Below are positions 4,197 through 20,823 of a stretch of 24,656 bases of DNA, piece by piece. The notes under the pieces were generated by a model. The model did not search any database. It had not been told where the DNA came from and saw only the letters and a list, made by a program, of their open reading frames with translations. This DNA comes from Dyadobacter fermentans (GTDB taxonomy: Bacteria > Bacteroidota > Bacteroidia > Cytophagales > Spirosomataceae). The position numbers were made by a program, and so were the translations under genes. How positions within the stretch are numbered: position 1 is the first letter of the stretch; every line of letters starts with the position of its first letter. The stretch is taken from assembly GCF_019924045.1 (NCBI RefSeq), contig NZ_JAHXBN010000003.1, positions 1 to 24,656 of the forward strand, written 5' to 3'.

Positions 4197-5773
4197 TGGA
4201 AGAGCAACAATCACTTTGGGGTTTTATGGCGCAGCAGTCGGGCAAGCTGTGGAGCCAGACTGTGGCCCATATCGGTCTCACCTGCATTTCGCTGCTCATT
4301 GCGATTGCCGTAGGGTTACCGCTGGGAATCTGGATCGCGCGGCGGAAAAAAGCTGCGTGGCTGGTACTTGGCATTGCCGGTGTGCTGCAAACCATTCCGA
4401 GCATTGCATTGCTGGGTTTTATGATCCCGCTACTGGGTATTGGCGCCCTACCCGCCATTACCGCGCTGTTTCTCTACGCATTACTACCCATTATCCGCAA
4501 TACCTACACCGGCATCACGGGTGTTGATCCGGCCATTACCGAATCCGCAAGAGGCATGGGAATGAACCCGTGGCAGATACTGGCGAGTGTGGAGCTGCCG
4601 CTCGCGATGCCCGTCATTCTCGCGGGAATCCGTACCGCCACGGTCATCAATGTAGGCGTCGCGACACTGGCTGCGTACATTGCGGCAGGTGGTTTGGGCG
4701 AATTCATTTTCGGAGGTATTGCGCTGAATAATACGCAAATGATCCTGGCCGGGGCCATTCCGGCCGCATTGCTGGCTGTTTTGTTCGACTTCCTGTTATC
4801 ATTACTTCAAAAGTCAGGTTTGAAAAGCATGCGCAAAATACCAGCCTTGCTGCCTCTTTTGCTGCTATTACTCTCCTCCTTTTACCTGATCCCTTACACG
4901 AAAGGCAATCTGCTCGCCGGTTTTACACCCGAATTCATGGGCCGGGAAGATGGCTATTTAGGTTTAAAATCGAAGTACGGGCTGGATGTTCCAACTGTCG
5001 TGATCAGCGACGCCGTGATGTACAAGGCCGCATTTGAAGAAAAACTGGACGTAATCAGCGGATACAGTACCGACGGCCGGTTGAAAGCATTCGACCTCGT
5101 AACACTGCATGACGACCAGCATATTTTTCCGCCTTACTATGCCGCGCCGGTAGTGAGGAGCGAAGTGCTCCGGCAATACCCGGAATTGCAGCCGGTTTTG
5201 GAGCAATTATCCGGCTACATCAACGATTCTGTTATGACAGAGCTGAACTACCGGGTCGATTACCTCAAACAGGCCCCGGACCGCGTCGCGCATGATTTTC
5301 TGATATCCAAAAAACTCTACCAACCGCCCGGCAAAGGCAGTAAAGGCACCGTACGGCTCGGTTCGAAGATTTTTGCAGAGCAGTACATTCTCATTCAAAT
5401 GTACAAGGAGCTGATTGAAGGCAATACCGACCTGAAAGCCATCACCAAAACCGGGCTCGGCGGCACGAAAATTTGTTTCGACGCATTGACCAACGGCGAA
5501 ATCGACTTGTACCCCGAGTACACAGGCACGGGTTTGCTTGCGATCCTCAAACCAGGTCGCGAACAACTGGCAAAGCTCGGCGGCGATCGCGACCGGGTTT
5601 ATGATTATGTTAAAAATGAATTTTTAAACCAATACAGGCTGCAATGGCTCCGGCCTATCGGCTTCAATAATGCCTACGCGCTGATGATGCGTCGTGTGCA
5701 GGCACAATCCTTGAATATCCAAACCATCACCGATCTGAAAAACTATGCAACTAATGGAAGCCACCGGCATTAG
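4196..5773 (+). CDS. Fused ABC permease / substrate-binding protein (EgtU/OpuC type) with apparently permuted binding domain
   Basis: A 525-residue fusion. Residues 1-205 form a permease with about five membrane segments and the EAA-type loop (ESARGMG...ELPLAMPVILAG, about 116-144). Residues 215-234 are a further membrane segment. The rest is an OpuAC-type quaternary-amine-binding domain facing the periplasm. Its two halves are in reversed order. The block normally found last (EFMGREDGYLGLKSKYGL, GYSTDGR, LHDDQHIFPPYYAAPVV, about 241-372) comes first. A Gly/Lys-rich linker (about 376-386) follows, and then the block normally found first (RLGSKIFAEQYIL, LGGT, GEIDLYPEYTGTG, GFNNAYALMMRR, TITDLKNY, about 387-517). 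ATG 4196 overlaps the ATPase stop; a longer frame from 4049 is an artefact. The 3' end overlaps egtB by up to 29 nt. Context suggests ergothioneine or a betaine precursor as ligand (inference). Confidence 0.87.
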   Translation: MEEQQSLWGFMAQQSGKLWSQTVAHIGLTCISLLIAIAVGLPLGIWIARRKKAAWLVLGIAGVLQTIPSIALLGFMIPLLGIGALPAITALFLYALLPIIRNTYTGITGVDPAITESARGMGMNPWQILASVELPLAMPVILAGIRTATVINVGVATLAAYIAAGGLGEFIFGGIALNNTQMILAGAIPAALLAVLFDFLLSLLQKSGLKSMRKIPALLPLLLLLLSSFYLIPYTKGNLLAGFTPEFMGREDGYLGLKSKYGLDVPTVVISDAVMYKAAFEEKLDVISGYSTDGRLKAFDLVTLHDDQHIFPPYYAAPVVRSEVLRQYPELQPVLEQLSGYINDSVMTELNYRVDYLKQAPDRVAHDFLISKKLYQPPGKGSKGTVRLGSKIFAEQYILIQMYKELIEGNTDLKAITKTGLGGTKICFDALTNGEIDLYPEYTGTGLLAILKPGREQLAKLGGDRDRVYDYVKNEFLNQYRLQWLRPIGFNNAYALMMRRVQAQSLNIQTITDLKNYATNGSHRH

Positions 5774-6911
5774 GGAAGCATTTCACAATGTCAGAAAGCA
5801 TTCGGAACACATTTGCGCCCCACTGGAAACGGAAGACTATGTGCCGCAACCCGTCGCGTTCGTAAGCCCGCCCAAGTGGCACCTGGCGCACTCGACGTGG
5901 TTTTTTGAAACCTTCATCCTCAAACCCCATGTGCCCGGCTATCAAGTTTACGATCCCGATTTCAATTACCTGTTCAATAGCTACTACAACAACGTAGGTG
6001 GACGTACGCTCCGTACCGACCGCGGAAATGTGACGCGCCCCACTACCAAGGCTGTTTACGCTTACCGCCGGTACGTCGACGAGCAAATGGACGCCTTCCT
6101 TGAAGACCTCTCCGACCCGGAGATCCTGGCGTTGGTAGAGCTTGGCCTGCATCACGAACAGCAGCACCAGGAGCTTTTGATCACCGACATCAAATACATT
6201 CTCGGCCATAACCCGCTCTTTCCGGTTTACCGCGCGGGGCAGAATATGGTCAACGGCCGCAATACTGAAAACGGCTTCCTTGCCATTCCCGAAGGCGTTT
6301 ACGACATCGGGCATCACGGCGAAAGTTTTTGTTTCGACAATGAGCTGGGCAGGCACAAGGTGTATCTGCACGACTTCGAAATCGCGAAAGGGCTCGTTAC
6401 CAACGGCGAATACATTGAATTTATGGAAGCCGGCGGTTATCAGGATTTCAACCTCTGGCTGGATGAGGGCTGGTCGTGGGTAAATCAAAACCACATCACC
6501 GTCCCGATGTACTGGCACCTGATCGACGGTGAATGGCATTATTTTACATTGGATGGCTTGCAAAAAGTGGATCTCGAAGCTACTCTGAGCCACATCAGCT
6601 TTTTCGAAGCCTCCGCATTTGCACAATGGAGAGGAATGCGGTTACCTACCGAATTCGAATGGGAAATTGCATCGGCCAACCTCGACTGGGGCCAGCGCTG
6701 GGAATGGACCAACAGCGCCTACCTGCCCTACCCGGGCTTTTCCAAAGCACCCGGCGCCGTGGGCGAGTACAATGGCAAATTTATGGTGAACCAGATGGTA
6801 CTCCGCGGTGCATCGGTGGCTACTTCGCCCGGACACGCCCGTAAAACGTACCGTAATTTCTTTCACACACACGAGCGCTGGCAATACACGGGCATCCGGC
6901 TGGCGCGATAA
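5745..6911 (+). CDS. egtB: EgtB-type sulfoxide synthase (ergothioneine biosynthesis)
   Basis: A 388-residue non-haem iron enzyme that forms the C-S bond between hercynine (N-alpha-trimethylhistidine) and a thiol in ergothioneine synthesis. The N-terminal DinB_2-like domain supplies the three iron ligands: His49 in HLAHSTWFFE, and His137/His141 in the HxxxHxE motif (HEQQHQE). The C-terminal FGE-sulfatase-like domain shows GLVTNGEYIEFMEAGGY, HISFFEASAFAQWRG, MRLPTEFEWE, WEWTNS and the terminal RWQYTGIRLAR. Start ATG 5745 or ATG 5754 is possible; both lie inside the end of the upstream transporter gene. egtD follows after 10 nt. No egtA or egtC is present, so whether the thiol donor is cysteine or gamma-glutamylcysteine cannot be read from the window. 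OvoA is less likely because it is usually fused to a methyltransferase. Confidence 0.9.
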   Translation: MQLMEATGIREAFHNVRKHSEHICAPLETEDYVPQPVAFVSPPKWHLAHSTWFFETFILKPHVPGYQVYDPDFNYLFNSYYNNVGGRTLRTDRGNVTRPTTKAVYAYRRYVDEQMDAFLEDLSDPEILALVELGLHHEQQHQELLITDIKYILGHNPLFPVYRAGQNMVNGRNTENGFLAIPEGVYDIGHHGESFCFDNELGRHKVYLHDFEIAKGLVTNGEYIEFMEAGGYQDFNLWLDEGWSWVNQNHITVPMYWHLIDGEWHYFTLDGLQKVDLEATLSHISFFEASAFAQWRGMRLPTEFEWEIASANLDWGQRWEWTNSAYLPYPGFSKAPGAVGEYNGKFMVNQMVLRGASVATSPGHARKTYRNFFHTHERWQYTGIRLAR

Positions 6912-6921
6912 ATCAATAGTT

Positions 6922-7866
6922 ATGACAGACGTACAAACTTTTGCCAGAGACATCCACAAGGGATTGTCCGCACCACGAAAACACATTTCGAGCAAGTATT
7001 TTTACGACGATATCGGCAGCGGGATTTTCCAGGACATCATGAAAATGCCGGAGTATTACCCTACGCCGTGCGAATTCGAAATCTTATCGCTGCAAGGGGA
7101 AAATATTATCGGAAAACTCGCATTCAACGGACCATTCCAAATTGTGGAATTCGGTGCGGGGGATGGCATCAAAACACGGCAGTTACTGAAAAAACTGGTC
7201 GGGCGGCAGGTTGATTTCACGTACGTGCCTATCGACATTTCTTCCAAAGCCATTGAGGAGCTAACGGCCAATATGCATGCCCATTTGCCTGGTTTGAAGA
7301 TCAGCCCGATGATCGGCAACTATTTTTCGATGATGGAAGAGCTGGCCGCATCGGGTGTGCCGAGTCTGCTGCTTTTTCTGGGCGGCAACATCGGCAACTA
7401 TGAAGCACACGAGGTCAATAGCCTGCTTACCGATTTCCGCAAATGCATGAGCCCGGGCGATTACCTGCTCACGGGCTTCGATTTACAAAAGAACCCGGCC
7501 ACCGTCCGCTGCGCTTACGATGACCCCAAAGGAATCACCAAAGCATTTAATATCAATTTATTACACCGAATCAACCGCGAATTGGGCGGCAGTTTCAAAA
7601 CTAACCAGTTCGACTTCTACTCGCATTACAATCCCGTCAATGGCGAGGTAAGGAGCTATCTCGTAAGCCTGGTGCCGCAAAAAGTACACGTGCGGTACAC
7701 CGACAAATGCTACGATTTTGACCGCAACGAGTTGATATGGACCGAGCTTTCCAAGAAATATACATTATCCGAAATTGAAGAGGTGGCCGCGGCCAACGGC
7801 TTCCGGGTAGTGGAGCATTTTCAGGATTGCAAGGCCTATTTCACGGACAGCCTCTGGACCATATAA
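6922..7866 (+). CDS. egtD: L-histidine N-alpha-methyltransferase EgtD
   Basis: EgtD trimethylates the alpha-amino group of histidine with SAM to give hercynine, the substrate of EgtB. The 314-residue protein (family about 320) has the SAM motif VEFGAGDGIKT (75-85), PIDIS (103-107), LGGNIGNY (153-160; Asn159 corresponds to the histidine-binding Asn166 of the mycobacterial enzyme), DLQKNP, and WTELSKKY (273-280; Glu275/Ser277 correspond to the substrate-binding Glu282/Ser284). The frame is open further upstream, into egtB, but ATG 6922, 10 nt after the egtB stop, gives the family-typical start MTDVQTFARDIHKGL. It is the last gene of the operon; a strong hairpin lies at its stop codon. Confidence 0.93.
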   Translation: MTDVQTFARDIHKGLSAPRKHISSKYFYDDIGSGIFQDIMKMPEYYPTPCEFEILSLQGENIIGKLAFNGPFQIVEFGAGDGIKTRQLLKKLVGRQVDFTYVPIDISSKAIEELTANMHAHLPGLKISPMIGNYFSMMEELAASGVPSLLLFLGGNIGNYEAHEVNSLLTDFRKCMSPGDYLLTGFDLQKNPATVRCAYDDPKGITKAFNINLLHRINRELGGSFKTNQFDFYSHYNPVNGEVRSYLVSLVPQKVHVRYTDKCYDFDRNELIWTELSKKYTLSEIEEVAAANGFRVVEHFQDCKAYFTDSLWTI

Positions 7867-15761: not shown

Positions 15762-15812
15762 AAATAGGCGGAATTGTACTTTCTTGCGGGCCAATCAGCG
15801 ATCAGGCATTCT

Positions 15813-16235
15813 ATGAAAATGTTTCAGCAAGGCATTCAGCTCAGAGCAAGAAGCCGCGGTTTCCATCTCATTACCGGGGAAATACTTCATGCATTACCGT
15901 CGATCAGCGAAATCAAGGCCGGGATGTGCCAGGTATTTATCCAGCACACCTCGGCTTCGCTGACGATCAACGAAAACACGGACCCTACTGTGCGCATCGA
16001 TTTTGAGATGTATTTCAATAAATCGGTCCCCGAAAATGATCCCGATTATCAGCATGACTACGAAGGTTCCGACGACATGCCGGCGCACTTGAAAGCGTCG
16101 CTGCTGGGAAGTTCTGTGATGATCCCGGTACGGAACGGCCGGCTCGCGCTCGGCACCTGGCAGGGGATTTATCTCTGCGAGCACCGCGATTACGGCGGCC
16201 CGAGAAACCTCATGGTCACCGCCTGGGGCATTTAG
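15813..16235 (+). CDS. yjbQ: YjbQ-family protein (UPF0047)
   Basis: A 140-residue protein of the YjbQ/UPF0047 family, which is widespread in bacteria and archaea; weak thiamine-phosphate synthase activity has been described for E. coli YjbQ. Family landmarks are FHLITGEIL, CQVFIQHTSASLTINEN with the conserved His, DMPAHLKASLLGSS and the end motif LALGTWQGIYLCEHRD. ATG 15813 (MKMFQQGIQLRARSRGF) gives the family-typical length; an in-frame ATG at 15774 would add 13 atypical residues. It is the last gene of the MFS-VOC-DinB-YjbQ run. A small hairpin at 16261-16277 follows. Confidence 0.93.
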   Translation: MKMFQQGIQLRARSRGFHLITGEILHALPSISEIKAGMCQVFIQHTSASLTINENTDPTVRIDFEMYFNKSVPENDPDYQHDYEGSDDMPAHLKASLLGSSVMIPVRNGRLALGTWQGIYLCEHRDYGGPRNLMVTAWGI

Positions 16236-16455: not shown

Positions 16456-17619
16456 TCAACGCCATTGTGTTATAGTTTCAGAACCAGGCCCATCGTTGGT
16501 CCAAACCTTGTCGCAGAGCGCAATCTGTTTCAAAAATGAATCTCTCGTTGGCGCAGTCAGGACATTTCCGCCGGAAAGGTATTGATAGCCTGTCAGCTGG
16601 TCCATACAGGAGACAACCATTTGCTTCTCGGCATTGCCCACAAAGTTGGCGTCGCATTGCAGCGCATATCTGAGCAAGTCGGTATCGAGAATTCCCGTCC
16701 GGAATGCGCCCTGATGCCCGTCCGGGCGGTTTGTTTCGTGCAGGTTGTTAATGAGTGAGACCGGATAGCTTTCTGCTGACATCCAGCCGTTTCCATGGCG
16801 GGTTTGGTAGGCCCTGGTCAGGTAGTAAACTGTTGCTCGCGCGTGCAAGCCATTGCGGCGCAGTATTTCGAATGCATTTTGGCTGGTTGTATTCGAGCGG
16901 GTCACATTTGGGAAAATACCGAAATCCATATCCAGCAGAATCCCCTGCCCGCCTTCGAAAATATAGTTTTCAAAACCCATTGCGAACAACCGGCTTTCTG
17001 TCAGCAGGCGAATCGTCCTGCGGGCGCTATCGACGTCACGCATAAACTGGTCCAGCCGCATAATTTCCAGCTCGAGCGCTTCCAGGCAACTTTCCAGCCC
17101 GCGTGCTTTGAACCTGATCCGGTAGTAGTCGCGAACCGCTTCGAGCTTGCGTTCCAAAACGGCCGAAAAAAACAGGTCCTGCGCATACAGCTTGAACGGC
17201 CCCTCGTTCCGCTCGATGGTCGCGCCAAAGCCCACGCCCACAGTACCGTGAGCGAGGTTGGCGCGGTCACTTAAATTATAGAATTTATCAAAAGGTGTTG
17301 TAACCATGGCCAGCGGGTCCACAAACAATACGGGGCTGACGCCCCATCGCTGCAATGCCCTGGATTCCCGAACAATGCCCGTCGGGTCGATCGTACAGAA
17401 CCGGGAGAAAAACACGGGTACCTTCCGGAAAGAGCCTGAACCAAAGTTCGAAAACACATGCAGCTGGCCGTCCGCGTGCATGACGGTGTGCCCGCATTGG
17501 TGCCCTCCATTGAACCTGACCACAACAGGATGGTCCAGCTTGGAGGAAAGGTAGTCGGTAAAAACGCCCTTTCCTTCATCACCATAACCCATCCCTAAAA
17601 TAATCTGAATGTTCCCCAT
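16456..17619 (-). CDS. Divergent adenylosuccinate synthetase (PurA) homologue
   Basis: A 387-residue PurA-fold protein (PurA itself is about 430). Retained: P-loop GYGDEGKG (11-18; catalytic Asp14 and Lys17), NGGHQCGHT (38-45, catalytic His44), the phosphate loop HGTVGVGFGATIER (124-137), EGGQGILLDMDFG (222-234) and AYQTRHGNG (270-278). Changed: the Trp before GDEGKG is Tyr; the aspartate-binding GATTGRRRRTG loop of PurA is DGHQGAFRTG here (300-309); the guanine-recognition TKxD is SCMD (337-340), having lost the Lys; and the C-terminal segment is shortened. It is probably an enzyme of the PurA type acting on another nucleotide, amino acid or phosphate donor, not the housekeeping PurA. It is the third gene of an operon, its ATG overlapping the VWA stop by 1 nt. 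Confidence 0.85.
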   Translation of the reverse strand: MGNIQIILGMGYGDEGKGVFTDYLSSKLDHPVVVRFNGGHQCGHTVMHADGQLHVFSNFGSGSFRKVPVFFSRFCTIDPTGIVRESRALQRWGVSPVLFVDPLAMVTTPFDKFYNLSDRANLAHGTVGVGFGATIERNEGPFKLYAQDLFFSAVLERKLEAVRDYYRIRFKARGLESCLEALELEIMRLDQFMRDVDSARRTIRLLTESRLFAMGFENYIFEGGQGILLDMDFGIFPNVTRSNTTSQNAFEILRRNGLHARATVYYLTRAYQTRHGNGWMSAESYPVSLINNLHETNRPDGHQGAFRTGILDTDLLRYALQCDANFVGNAEKQMVVSCMDQLTGYQYLSGGNVLTAPTRDSFLKQIALCDKVWTNDGPGSETITQWR

Positions 17620-18548
17620 TATAATGCGATAATGCCAGAGATGCCATGGTCACGGCGAACGAGTGAATCTTTGACGGCGACCAGCGCGTTGGAAACCGAT
17701 TGTCTTGTTCTGCTATCAAACCGGCTCATGGCATCATCCGCGTTAACCCCTTTTACCAACGCCACGGTGGTAGCAATGAGCTCGGCAATGTTGTTCTGGT
17801 CTTCAAGTACCAGAAAGCGCTCGCCGAGCAATGCTTTCCATTGAGAAAACACAAAATGATCGTTGTGATAGCTGGCTTCGTTGGCATGAATATGAAAAAC
17901 GAAATACGACCGGCAGGCTTCGTTCAGCAACGACGCCGCGTTGAGATTTTCCTTCCCGCGGTATCCGCATTTGGCCCGTAATAAATCGGCGGCCATTACG
18001 TCATGGAAGCCCTCGTCGCCGATTGTAAAAAGGAAACCCTTCTCCTGCCTTTTTTCGAAGGAATCAATGGAAGTGTGCCTTGCCGCGAAGTACCACGCCA
18101 ACGGATAACTTTCGCGGTTCTGCCCGCCTCCGCCCCGCTCGATGAAAATCCGGGAAAGGCAGGCATCCAGCTCCATTGTACCCGATTCGAACTGGCCTAC
18201 CTGCAAGGGATAATCGTCGGAAATATGGTCTCCCACCGCCATAAACATGATTTGCGGATCCAGAATACCATTGCTTATCAATGTGTTCATCAATGCGCCA
18301 AGTTTGTTCTTGATCAGGTTTTCGGGGATCGAGCCCATCGAACCGGTTACGTCCAGCGCTACGACGATCGGCACCGAATCAGGATGCAGATGCGAATCCC
18401 GCGACTCCCGGACGTCGACGCCCTCGGGGGATAGGTCGGGGTGGATCACGCCCAGCTTGTTTTGGGTGAAATTGTCGTCGATCGATTGCGTCCTGCGCAC
18501 ACGGCTCACGCTGTCGTAAGCATCGTCACTCCATGAGGAATAGCCCAT
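17619..18548 (-). CDS. VWA (von Willebrand factor A) domain protein
   Basis: A 309-residue soluble protein with no signal peptide or membrane segment. After a charged N-terminal part (1-58), the VWA domain starts at IVVALDVTGSMGS (61-73). This is the MIDAS metal motif in its DxTGS form (Asp66, Ser70), with Thr124 in ESGTMELD and the later FTIGDEGF aspartate completing the site. GGGGQNRESYPLAWYFAAR (139-157) is a glycine loop also common in TerY-like and other bacterial cytoplasmic VWA proteins. The end (about 255-309) is helical. It is the middle gene of the operon: 4 nt after the J-domain gene and overlapping the PurA-like gene by 1 nt (TAATG). VWA proteins often mediate metal-dependent complex assembly; the partners are probably its operon neighbours. 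Confidence 0.88.
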   Translation of the reverse strand: MGYSSWSDDAYDSVSRVRRTQSIDDNFTQNKLGVIHPDLSPEGVDVRESRDSHLHPDSVPIVVALDVTGSMGSIPENLIKNKLGALMNTLISNGILDPQIMFMAVGDHISDDYPLQVGQFESGTMELDACLSRIFIERGGGGQNRESYPLAWYFAARHTSIDSFEKRQEKGFLFTIGDEGFHDVMAADLLRAKCGYRGKENLNAASLLNEACRSYFVFHIHANEASYHNDHFVFSQWKALLGERFLVLEDQNNIAELIATTVALVKGVNADDAMSRFDSRTRQSVSNALVAVKDSLVRRDHGISGIIAL

Positions 18549-18552
18549 TGTT

Positions 18553-19407
18553 TTAAATATTTAAGTGTATGAATTGAGATGGAAAATTTCGGTCGAGCAT
18601 TTCGCGGTATTTTTCGTAGCACAGCAGCGAATCGTCGTCGGAGCTTAGAAGAAAATCCACAAACTCGCGATGGTGGGTTTTACGCAGCGCGGTACCAAGC
18701 CCGGAACGGTCGCCAAGGAGATAAGCGCCTATCCGTTTCGCCATTTCTAGGTCGGCATTTTCGGTAGCTTTTTTGTCTCTCAGCAGTTGTCCGGGATACC
18801 AATGCCGGTAGGCGCCCGATATGGTCCGGACTTTGCCGTTTAGCACTGCCAGGTGGTAAAAACCGGCTACGGCAATCCCGTGTGTTTCGGGCACGAGCAT
18901 TACGTGCGCGGGCGTCAGGCCCAGGTGCGCACGGCCCGTATGCCTGTGCAGCAGCATGCAGAATTCCAGCAACCGCGAAACGACCCAGTTCACATGCTCT
19001 TGTGGTAAAGTGAGGTTCACGAGCGGTACCGCCCGTTGGGAAAGCAAAAAACCGTCGTCAGTATCCCAGCTATAAGGCATATACCGTCTGAAATGCTCCG
19101 GGGCGGCGGCCGAGACTTCCTGCTGGTTCCACTTGGCCTGCGCCACGGCCTGTTTATCGCCCTGGAAGAGCACCCAATGGTTGTTGGTCAGGAACTTACC
19201 GGAATCGTCGGTAAAGGCAGAGCCGTTGCCAAAATGCCGGAACAATTCGATCAACCGGTTGGTAGCCTCCTGTGCGGAAGGATGGCTGCATTTATCGGGA
19301 TGGATGGCCTTCAACATGTCCCGGTATGTCATGGCCGTGCTTTCAGCCAATACCTGGTAATCGATGGCTTGCAACACCTGCCCGATCAATCCGCTGTCGT
19401 CTGTCAT
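18553..19407 (-). CDS. J-domain protein fused to a degenerate protein-kinase-like domain
   Basis: A 284-residue protein. The N-terminal J-domain contains the canonical HPDK (36-39) in YRDMLKAIHPDKCSHPSAQEA, needed to stimulate DnaK ATPase. The C-terminal part (about 120-284) resembles a protein-kinase C-lobe: LHRHTGRAHLGLTPAHVML (153-171) occupies the place of the HxDLKPxNILL catalytic loop, then VAGF (180-183) replaces DFG, then ADLEMAKRIGAYLLGD resembles helix F. The catalytic Asp (HLG instead of HxD), the metal-binding Asn (now His168) and the DFG Asp are absent, so a pseudokinase is inferred; no clear glycine loop or VAIK Lys is seen. An in-frame TTG at 19458 is open but ATG 19407 is preferred. 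It is the first gene of the J/pseudokinase-VWA-PurA operon. Confidence 0.78.
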   Translation of the reverse strand: MTDDSGLIGQVLQAIDYQVLAESTAMTYRDMLKAIHPDKCSHPSAQEATNRLIELFRHFGNGSAFTDDSGKFLTNNHWVLFQGDKQAVAQAKWNQQEVSAAAPEHFRRYMPYSWDTDDGFLLSQRAVPLVNLTLPQEHVNWVVSRLLEFCMLLHRHTGRAHLGLTPAHVMLVPETHGIAVAGFYHLAVLNGKVRTISGAYRHWYPGQLLRDKKATENADLEMAKRIGAYLLGDRSGLGTALRKTHHREFVDFLLSSDDDSLLCYEKYREMLDRNFPSQFIHLNI

Positions 19408-19679: not shown

Positions 19680-20237
19680 CTAAACAAACGCAACCTCAAT
19701 TAACCCTCCTAACCCGGCATAACATCCGGCACTCGAATACAGATATTCTTCGGGCCGTTCCACCCAACCCGCCCGGACCGGGTTCATGTGGATGTAGTTC
19801 AATTTCTGCTTTATAAATTTGTTCGAAAACAACTCGACGGGATGGTTTTCGTGGGTCCAGAACTGATGAAAACTATTTCTCACATTTCTCCTTGCTGCGA
19901 ACTCAAACCGCTTCAACATCCAATCTCTGCGACTTTCCGGCTCGTTCCGAATGGTCTCGATAATCGTCCGGCCAGTAAATTTTTTAAATTCTCTTACGAC
20001 CTCTGAAAGATTTCCGTTGCCCGCGCGCCAGATTACGTGCACATGATTAGTCATGATCACGTAGGCGTAAATTTCCAGACCCATTTTCCGTTGACAGAAC
20101 TTCATGCTGTCGATCAGGATGTCGCGATAGATTTTTCTGGAAAAAGTATCTACCCAGTCAATGACCTGGAACGTCATGTAGTGCGCCGCGTCCTGATCTG
20201 CAATTTTGTAGGTTTGACTCATGGTTTTCTTTTCCAT
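19680..20237 (-). CDS. REP-associated tyrosine transposase (RAYT, Y1_Tnp)
   Basis: A 185-residue HUH-type single-strand DNA transposase. The metal-binding HUH motif is TNHVHVIW (His65, His67), and the likely catalytic Tyr148 is in KLNYIHMNPVRAGWVERPEEYLYSSA, the signature ending of RAYTs. REFKKFTGRTI and FWTHENHPVELFSN are further family features. RAYTs nick and rejoin REP hairpins and are usually vertically inherited rather than freely mobile. The gene is complete with no frameshift. Start ATG 20237 (MEKKTMSQTYKI) or ATG 20222 is possible. The 45-bp inverted repeats on both sides are its probable substrates. Confidence 0.92.
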   Translation of the reverse strand: MEKKTMSQTYKIADQDAAHYMTFQVIDWVDTFSRKIYRDILIDSMKFCQRKMGLEIYAYVIMTNHVHVIWRAGNGNLSEVVREFKKFTGRTIIETIRNEPESRRDWMLKRFEFAARRNVRNSFHQFWTHENHPVELFSNKFIKQKLNYIHMNPVRAGWVERPEEYLYSSAGCYAGLGGLIEVAFV

Positions 20238-20544: not shown

Positions 20545-20823
20545 ATGGTAGAGGTATTCAAAACAACGGTAGAGAAGCAAAGCCAGGCGAGGTTGCTCAT
20601 CGATCTGATTTGCCTTGCATTCACAGGTTACCGGGCCACCTTCGATCTCGAAGATTGCGATAAGGTATTGCGGATCAGTTGCGACGGCACAGCGGTATGC
20701 CATGCCAGCGTCATAGGCCTGCTCGAAAGCTTCGGTTATGAGGCGGCCGTTCTGGAAGACACTTATTCCGAAAAGGAACACTCCGGCGGCATCGCGAGTC
20801 CTATCCATTCTATAACCATATAA
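20545..20823 (+). CDS. Small conserved protein, HMA/ferredoxin-like fold without Cys motif
   Basis: A 92-residue protein beginning MVEVFKTTVEKQSQARLLIDLI, with RATFDLEDCDKVLRISC and VIGLLESFGYEAAVLED. The beta-alpha-beta-beta-alpha-beta pattern resembles heavy-metal-associated domains, but the metal-binding CxxC is absent. I recognise it as a family of short proteins in Bacteroidota with no established function. It is the first gene behind the shared regulatory module and is 12 nt from the DoxX-like gene, so the two are probably co-transcribed. Confidence 0.72.
   Translation: MVEVFKTTVEKQSQARLLIDLICLAFTGYRATFDLEDCDKVLRISCDGTAVCHASVIGLLESFGYEAAVLEDTYSEKEHSGGIASPIHSITI

Follow-up and report, generated by a model that had tools for sequence, protein, structure and literature searches.

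We describe a three-gene module in a 24,656-nucleotide stretch of Dyadobacter fermentans DNA (contig NZ_JAHXBN010000003.1; hereafter the window), which belongs to an 8.0-Mb Bacteroidota genome (G000). It comprises a relative of adenylosuccinate synthetase (PurA), which we call PurAL, a von Willebrand factor A protein (VWA) and a J-domain pseudokinase (JK). PurAL appears to keep the chemistry of PurA with altered substrate pockets, and it accompanies VWA wherever this could be checked. With a confidence that falls just short of even, we propose that the three proteins form a conserved, mobile, cytosolic enzyme module on purine- or NAD-linked nucleotides, in which a PurA-derived enzyme with a new substrate would work with a VWA partner and a JK scaffold. 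The genes are minus-strand open reading frames (ORFs) lying head to tail at positions 16456-19407:

18553..19407, minus strand: JK, 284 aa, start ATG at 19407; J-domain (residues 1-61, HPD at 36-38) fused to a pseudokinase (60-284)
18549..18552, minus strand: JK/VWA junction, a 4-nt gap
17619..18548, minus strand: VWA, 309 aa; integrin-like vWA domain with a metal-ion-dependent adhesion site (MIDAS), D66-x-T68-G-S70, and a disordered tail (298-309) ending in Leu
16456..17619, minus strand: PurAL, 387 aa; D14, K17 and H44 correspond to PurA catalytic residues, and the pocket changes are Q41, H275 and Q303 (own numbering)

The VWA and PurAL genes share one nucleotide, position 17619. A first-pass annotation of the window had already read these genes as a J-domain fused to a dead kinase, a MIDAS VWA protein and a PurA homologue with junctions of +4 and -1 nt, a description that holds.

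The residues of PurAL carry the main argument. In PurA, N38, T129 and R143 hold the 5'-phosphate of inosine monophosphate (IMP), V273 and R303 the ribose, T301, R303 and R305 the aspartate, and K331 and D333 the guanine, and D13, H41 and Q224 serve the 6-phosphoryl chemistry. We aligned 165 PurAL sequences to Salmonella PurA, whose numbering is used below. PurAL shares with PurA the Pfam family (PF00709, 147 bits), the P-loop GDEGKG and a set of near-invariant residues: D13 (163 of 165), K16 (163), H41 (165), E221 (165), Q224 (165), T239 (163) and D333 (163). Unlike PurA, it shows N38Q (162), V273H (165) and T301Q (163), the three together in 160 sequences, as well as T129C/V (164) and K331C (152), and the PurA arginines are lost (R305 in none, R303 in 4, R143 in 2). 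None of these changes is seen in three reference PurAs or in the four full-length PurAs compared from carrier genomes. As judged from this alignment, the phosphoryl-transfer core of adenylosuccinate synthetase is retained and the nucleotide and amino-acid pockets differ family-wide. Since the residues of the chemistry are kept and both substrate pockets are altered, we infer that PurAL is probably a PurA-derived enzyme with a new substrate, the step on which our interpretation turns. The same pocket changes strengthen the earlier idea of a modified nucleotide. PurAL scores under the equivalog cut-offs for housekeeping PurA (NF002223, 122.2 versus 402 bits; TIGR00184, 95.5 versus 395.55).

PurAL is also set apart from PurA by its linkage to VWA. 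VWA homologues made up 6669 of 8000 scored candidates. From 543 confirmed cellular loci and 183 loci on viral contigs (IMG/VR predictions) we took the 80 best in each case, and we added Dyadobacter and phage loci. The resulting 172 VWA records, in which some places are represented more than once (the window with L002 and L003; L005 with L015), fall into 81 clusters at 70% identity. PurAL lies on the VWA strand in 168 of the 172 (counting L067, whose ORF calls overlap), mostly adjacent and up to 2.7 kb off. The four records without an adjacent PurAL are L065, which is cut off by the edge of its contig, and three with a JK-VWA pair, L027, L030 and L031; all three of the latter genomes (3 of 3 tested; L030 and L031 look related) encode a PurAL with N38Q/V273H/T301Q elsewhere. 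Among 395 evenly drawn Bacteroidota genomes, searches with a VWA profile (E<=1e-10) and with the PurAL protein (E<=1e-30, chosen to exclude housekeeping PurA, so that a very divergent lone PurAL could escape) matched the identical 15 genomes, of four genera. VWA and PurAL co-occur in every testable locus or genome, which bears out the suggestion that the genes act as a unit. The pairwise distance matrices of VWA, PurAL and JK correlate as well (r 0.74-0.86; 0 of 999 permutations as high), for which shared descent alone could suffice.

The third position is more variable: JK is present in 64 of the 172 VWA records and missing from 108. Directly upstream of VWA in most loci without JK is a protein of ~114 aa with no Pfam family (86 loci by clustering, e.g., L140:5654-5995; by hidden Markov model, 50 of 59 such cellular and 41 of 47 such viral loci). 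No locus among those fetched has both, and the ~114-aa protein looks like an alternative third subunit to JK. An initial search found VWA in 7 of 59 genomes, the window's own included, all 7 of its genus; among 198 genomes from the phylum that the Rhodococcus genome belongs to, the centre genome was the sole one with VWA. The full set or the VWA-PurAL core nevertheless occurs in Bacteroidota, actinobacteria, Chloroflexi, proteobacterial and myxobacterial metagenome-assembled genomes (taxa as named by the records) and phages, and is thus not confined to clonal relatives of this strain.

PDB sequence searches with VWA and JK returned nothing useful, and the folds were therefore taken from models. 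In the AlphaFold2 model of JK, helices 28-35 and 45-61 flank the HPD motif at 36-38, as J-domain helices II and III would. The HPD motif is kept in 61 of 63 JK proteins, the Pfam DnaJ score is 14.4 bits, under the gathering score of 27.8, and the aspartate of the HRD motif is missing in all 37 JK proteins compared. JK is thus predicted, from sequence and model, to be an HPD J-domain joined to a kinase fold without its catalytic aspartate. VWA has no Pfam match; its predicted vWA fold carries the DxTxS of a MIDAS, and its C-terminal region is modelled as disordered. A C-terminal Leu is found in 30 of 41 VWAs of class I (loci with JK), 32 of 37 of class II and 8 of 19 others, versus 85 of 1195 neighbouring ORFs. 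Together, the model and these counts indicate a MIDAS motif and a conserved C terminus for VWA.

All three window proteins match phage families in PHROGs: phrog_1211 (5e-48), phrog_2971 (1.3e-47) and phrog_3043, "kinase" (3.3e-8). VWA occurs in 207 of 50,697 phage records (188 Mycobacterium, 1 Mycolicibacterium, 10 Rhizobium and 6 Vibrio phages and 2 others), and PurAL matches 226, with the same hosts, a total that includes housekeeping purA. Two "phage" records, AFYI01000007 (L013) and CAKLQF020000006 (L014), were rejected as PurAL carriers, being bacterial contigs with housekeeping purA, and their purA genes served as PurA references. The phage records annotate the module genes as "hypothetical" or "PurA-like." Mycobacteriophage I3 has a J-kinase (HPD seen), VWA, a small ORF and PurAL in module order, and phages RHph_TM39 and TDDLMA have the VWA-PurAL pair with other proteins upstream. 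With equal samples of the best 80 cellular and best 80 viral loci, plus a few others, 55 of the 81 VWA clusters are viral; therefore, phages themselves carry the module widely. On a VWA tree of 76 rows (SH-aLRT support only), virus and cell labels require 13 changes; the window VWA pairs with the viral contig L097 (SH-aLRT 92), and the I3 VWA groups with three actinobacterial genes (SH-aLRT 98). Because of these label changes and groupings, the module appears to have crossed between phages and bacteria on more than one occasion.

In Dyadobacter, the module occupies one site, whose flanks in the window are as follows:

15774..16235, plus strand: UPF0047 gene, bounding the insertion site on the left; of 48 genomes searched in the genus, 47 have a homologue
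20545..20823, plus strand: short ORF, right flank; in all 13 other Dyadobacter sites compared, module present or not

All 11 carriers examined (the window and ten others, four of them added by fetching the sites with the most similar UPF0047, among a subset of the 48 genus genomes) have the three genes between these flanks. Three noncarriers have the same flanks without the module, with a 195-bp gap in L236. Among the carriers, L235 gives a partial PurAL match, but a 379-codon frame is open, and other ORFs lie between UPF0047 and PurAL. Between UPF0047 and PurAL in relatives L196, L198, L199 and L232 is a stretch of 3.4-4.4 kb whose ORFs look unrelated by eye. Against five relatives, the ratio of nonsynonymous to synonymous substitution rates (dN/dS) was 0.080-0.125 for JK, 0.015-0.029 for VWA and 0.049-0.076 for PurAL; these values are rough because dS is high, with one saturated comparison each for VWA and PurAL. 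The selection seen in these ratios and the single insertion site count in favour of a conserved module. A Y1 (IS200-like) transposase adjoins the module at 19680-20237, as one does in 2 of 10 other carriers examined (L198 and L201). The flanking genes of the window are ordinary by Pfam (DinB, MFS, glyoxalase, DoxX, polyketide-cyclase-like, a second DinB, thioredoxin and enolase-like; two without a match). Of additional note, two ORFs at 5745-7866 resemble, by eye only, the ergothioneine genes egtB and egtD.

The neighbouring genes bear on the substrate. We put one representative of each of the 22 most recurrent neighbour clusters to Pfam. Recurrent neighbours were NrtR, NADAR, PARG, macro, ADP-ribosylglycohydrolase (ARH), Tpt1/KptA, Sir2, NAMPT, PRPP-synthetase-like and DUF4291 proteins, and further 2OG oxygenase, R2K ATP-grasp, HAD_SAK, DNA ligase, DUF1579, LysR and DJ-1; four representatives (c22-c24 and c2) had no match, and no PurB-like lyase was seen among the clusters checked. 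At least one NAD/ADP-ribose gene, counting DUF4291 and PRPP-synthetase-like genes, lies within the flanks of 47 of 59 cellular loci without JK. In part of the lineages, the module recurrently sits among genes of NAD+/ADP-ribose metabolism rather than ter genes, to which the first-pass annotation had likened the module: no ter family was found among the 22 clusters, the four unmatched representatives included in that count. Its proposal that the neighbours of VWA be tabulated thus had a mixed outcome, in that PurA-like (168 of 172) and J-kinase (64 of 172) partners recur and, among the 22 clusters, ter families do not. For defence islands, PADLOC (E<=1e-10) was run on 78 flank proteins out of 100 listed for class I cellular loci and gave scattered matches, in one or two members each: three Pycsar-cyclase models, PDC-S07, SspA, DndA, REase_II and three ZorB/MotB models. 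Overall, the unit and its apparently undescribed composition stand, and the Ter link finds no support among these clusters.

A Nudix/NrtR gene is a recurring partner across lineages, being present in 10 of the 81 VWA clusters, 8 of the 10 cellular. In Mucilaginibacter (L017), the order is NrtR, PRPP-synthetase-like, NAMPT, ARH, JK, VWA and PurAL; the partner also occurs in Bacteroidetes L028, and Actinoplanes L088 has NrtR directly upstream of JK. With 23 NrtR_WHD matches in nine such genomes (~53 Mb), chance proximity of NrtR in a 13-kb locus would be ~0.006. In Rhizobium phage RHph_TM39 (L010:2642-4242), PRTase_3 and Nudix genes lie a few kb upstream of VWA-PurAL; the Nudix gene is recorded as NMN adenylyltransferase/Nudix, of which Pfam detects Nudix alone. 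As observations in their own right, the Chryseobacterium and Flavobacterium loci (within L033-L094) have VWA-PurAL inside ADP-ribose gene arrays (NrtR, NADAR, PARG, macro, ARH, Tpt1, Sir2, NAMPT and DUF4291), and a 762-aa protein downstream of PurAL at L028:8148-10433 joins isochorismatase, TCAD9 and DSP-type phosphatase domains.

Several counts weigh against an NAD/ADP-ribose role. Such a neighbour is found in just 5 of 21 cellular loci with JK, 4 of 33 viral loci with JK and 4 of 47 other viral loci, and per cluster (DUF4291 left out) in 9 of 26 cellular and 8 of 55 viral clusters. The signal comes mostly from Chryseobacterium (27 loci) and Flavobacterium (14), together 41 of the 80 cellular loci; the window lacks these neighbours, as do most loci outside Flavobacteriia. 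No NADAR was found in the Dyadobacter genome of the window. In Gordonia L079 and Rhodococcus L084, the Nudix gene after PurAL shows no above-threshold NrtR helix, and plain Nudix genes outnumber NrtR, so that chance proximity is higher for them. The window genome does have five NrtR matches, away from the module. As for ARH, the core gene of the ARG-centred systems discussed below, none was recognised in the window genes scanned; 37 of the 80 cellular loci have one, against 0 of the 80 viral loci.

Taking the residues and the gene context together, we suggest a plausible mechanism. PurAL would use a nucleoside triphosphate to phosphorylate the oxo group of a 6-oxopurine-type nucleotide other than plain IMP and would then couple the phosphorylated nucleotide to an amine other than aspartate. 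The NAD/ADP-ribose context suggests that the substrate is related to NAD or ADP-ribose, in which case PurAL may be a ligase or phosphotransferase on an NAD/ADP-ribose-linked purine (di)nucleotide. VWA would be an obligate partner of PurAL: its MIDAS and Mg2+ would bind an acidic group, and it would dock, or be processed, via its C-terminal tail. JK may be a scaffold that recruits DnaK (Hsp70) to assemble, activate or dismantle the complex, replaceable by the small ~114-aa protein. For phages, the benefit could be that purine/NAD nucleotides are preserved or resynthesised while infection proceeds; for bacteria, it could be protection from nucleotide damage or ADP-ribose stress. A bolder version, which we offer only tentatively, is that PurAL represents a new class of enzymes, derived from adenylosuccinate synthetase, and builds or repairs a noncanonical purine (di)nucleotide of the NAD+/ADP-ribose pool (e.g., inosine- or hypoxanthine-containing), or attaches a nucleotide to the VWA tail, under the control of the Hsp70-recruiting pseudokinase, and that phages and bacteria trade it as an attack and counter-attack module in NAD-based immunity.

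Other explanations were weighed against this scheme. PurZ, of the phage 2-aminoadenine pathway, is also a phage-borne PurA paralogue, and PurAL could be a PurZ-like synthetase making a noncanonical deoxynucleotide for phage DNA, with VWA and JK as its chaperones. The name "2-aminooxy adenylosuccinate synthetase" given to PurAL by PHROGs and some phage records, the viral majority of clusters and the anaerobic ribonucleotide reductase genes ~4 kb from the module in Vibrio phage TDDLMA fit this idea. We consider it improbable, however: PurAL reaches 39 bits with the PurZ model NF038379, whose cut-off is 300, and has other partners. In PurZ, the catalytic D13 is replaced and the aspartate loop is needed, whereas PurAL keeps D13 (163 of 165) and has an altered loop. 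The module is also found on bacterial chromosomes, and among the window flank genes scanned no phage gene was recognised beside it. Ter/TerY systems combine VWA, kinase-like and nucleotide-enzyme parts, with an active partner kinase. Their composition is shared by our module, and in RHph_TM39 an annotated dehalogenase-like hydrolase accompanies PRTase_3 a few kb upstream of VWA-PurAL, as an anti-phage or stress system of this kind, making a signal nucleotide, might have it. Such a system is nonetheless unlikely here, given the lack of ter families among the 22 most recurrent neighbour clusters (four of whose representatives had no Pfam match), a different enzyme and a J-domain pseudokinase that lost its HRD Asp in 37 of 37 cases; none of the three proteins matches any family in PADLOC-DB 2.0.0, and the flank matches are scattered and only around class I cellular loci. 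We likewise give little weight to a protein-folding or assembly unit in which JK and VWA are Hsp70 co-chaperone parts and PurAL a client or nonenzymatic subunit. The HPD J-domain agrees with it, and jumbo phages are reported to encode DnaJ together with a distinct MoxR-vWA pair proposed to assist virion assembly (PMC7824862, available part). Yet the catalytic residues of PurAL are near-invariant and its dN/dS is 0.049-0.076, JK is missing from 108 of 172 records, and no virion gene was recognised around the window copy. That PurAL is a mere back-up PurA making AMP, as the shared Pfam family might suggest, is highly improbable, since the aspartate loop, R143 and K331 are altered in almost all PurALs and a normal purA is also present in the window genome and five other carrier genomes examined (one split over two contigs).

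The module of PurAL, VWA and JK is apparently undescribed so far. As the first-pass annotation had supposed, we found no named system of this composition in the open literature searched, and the available parts of PMC9503650, PMC7824862, PMC7159879, PMC4431377, PMC13174449 and PMC9476963 do not describe the combination. The closest gene context is that of the ARG-centred ADP-ribose systems, in which, in the available text of PMC9503650, an NrtR-like Nudix regulator, ADP-ribosylglycohydrolase, NADAR, macro and a vWA protein lie in neighbouring genes. Our module shares these families and a nearby vWA protein; in contrast, ARG is optional in it and VWA-PurAL is the core, and the available main text of that paper has no adenylosuccinate, PurA or DnaJ. 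Parts of the Ter system are described in the available text of PMC7824862. The I3 genes gp270-273, with the order of the module, are annotated gene by gene only, as "kinase," "hypothetical protein" and "2-aminooxy adenylosuccinate synthetase." In the available part of a phage announcement (PMC9476963), gene 240, a serine/threonine kinase, and gene 243, which is PurA-like, appear in the gene list but are not linked.

In this module, a pseudokinase that would recruit Hsp70 is combined with a cytosolic MIDAS protein of integrin-like type and with a PurA paralogue whose new pocket hardly varies across the family. That pocket signature opens the question of the substrate to direct testing. Should the NAD/ADP-ribose link hold, the module would be an unstudied arm of the phage-host conflict over NAD.

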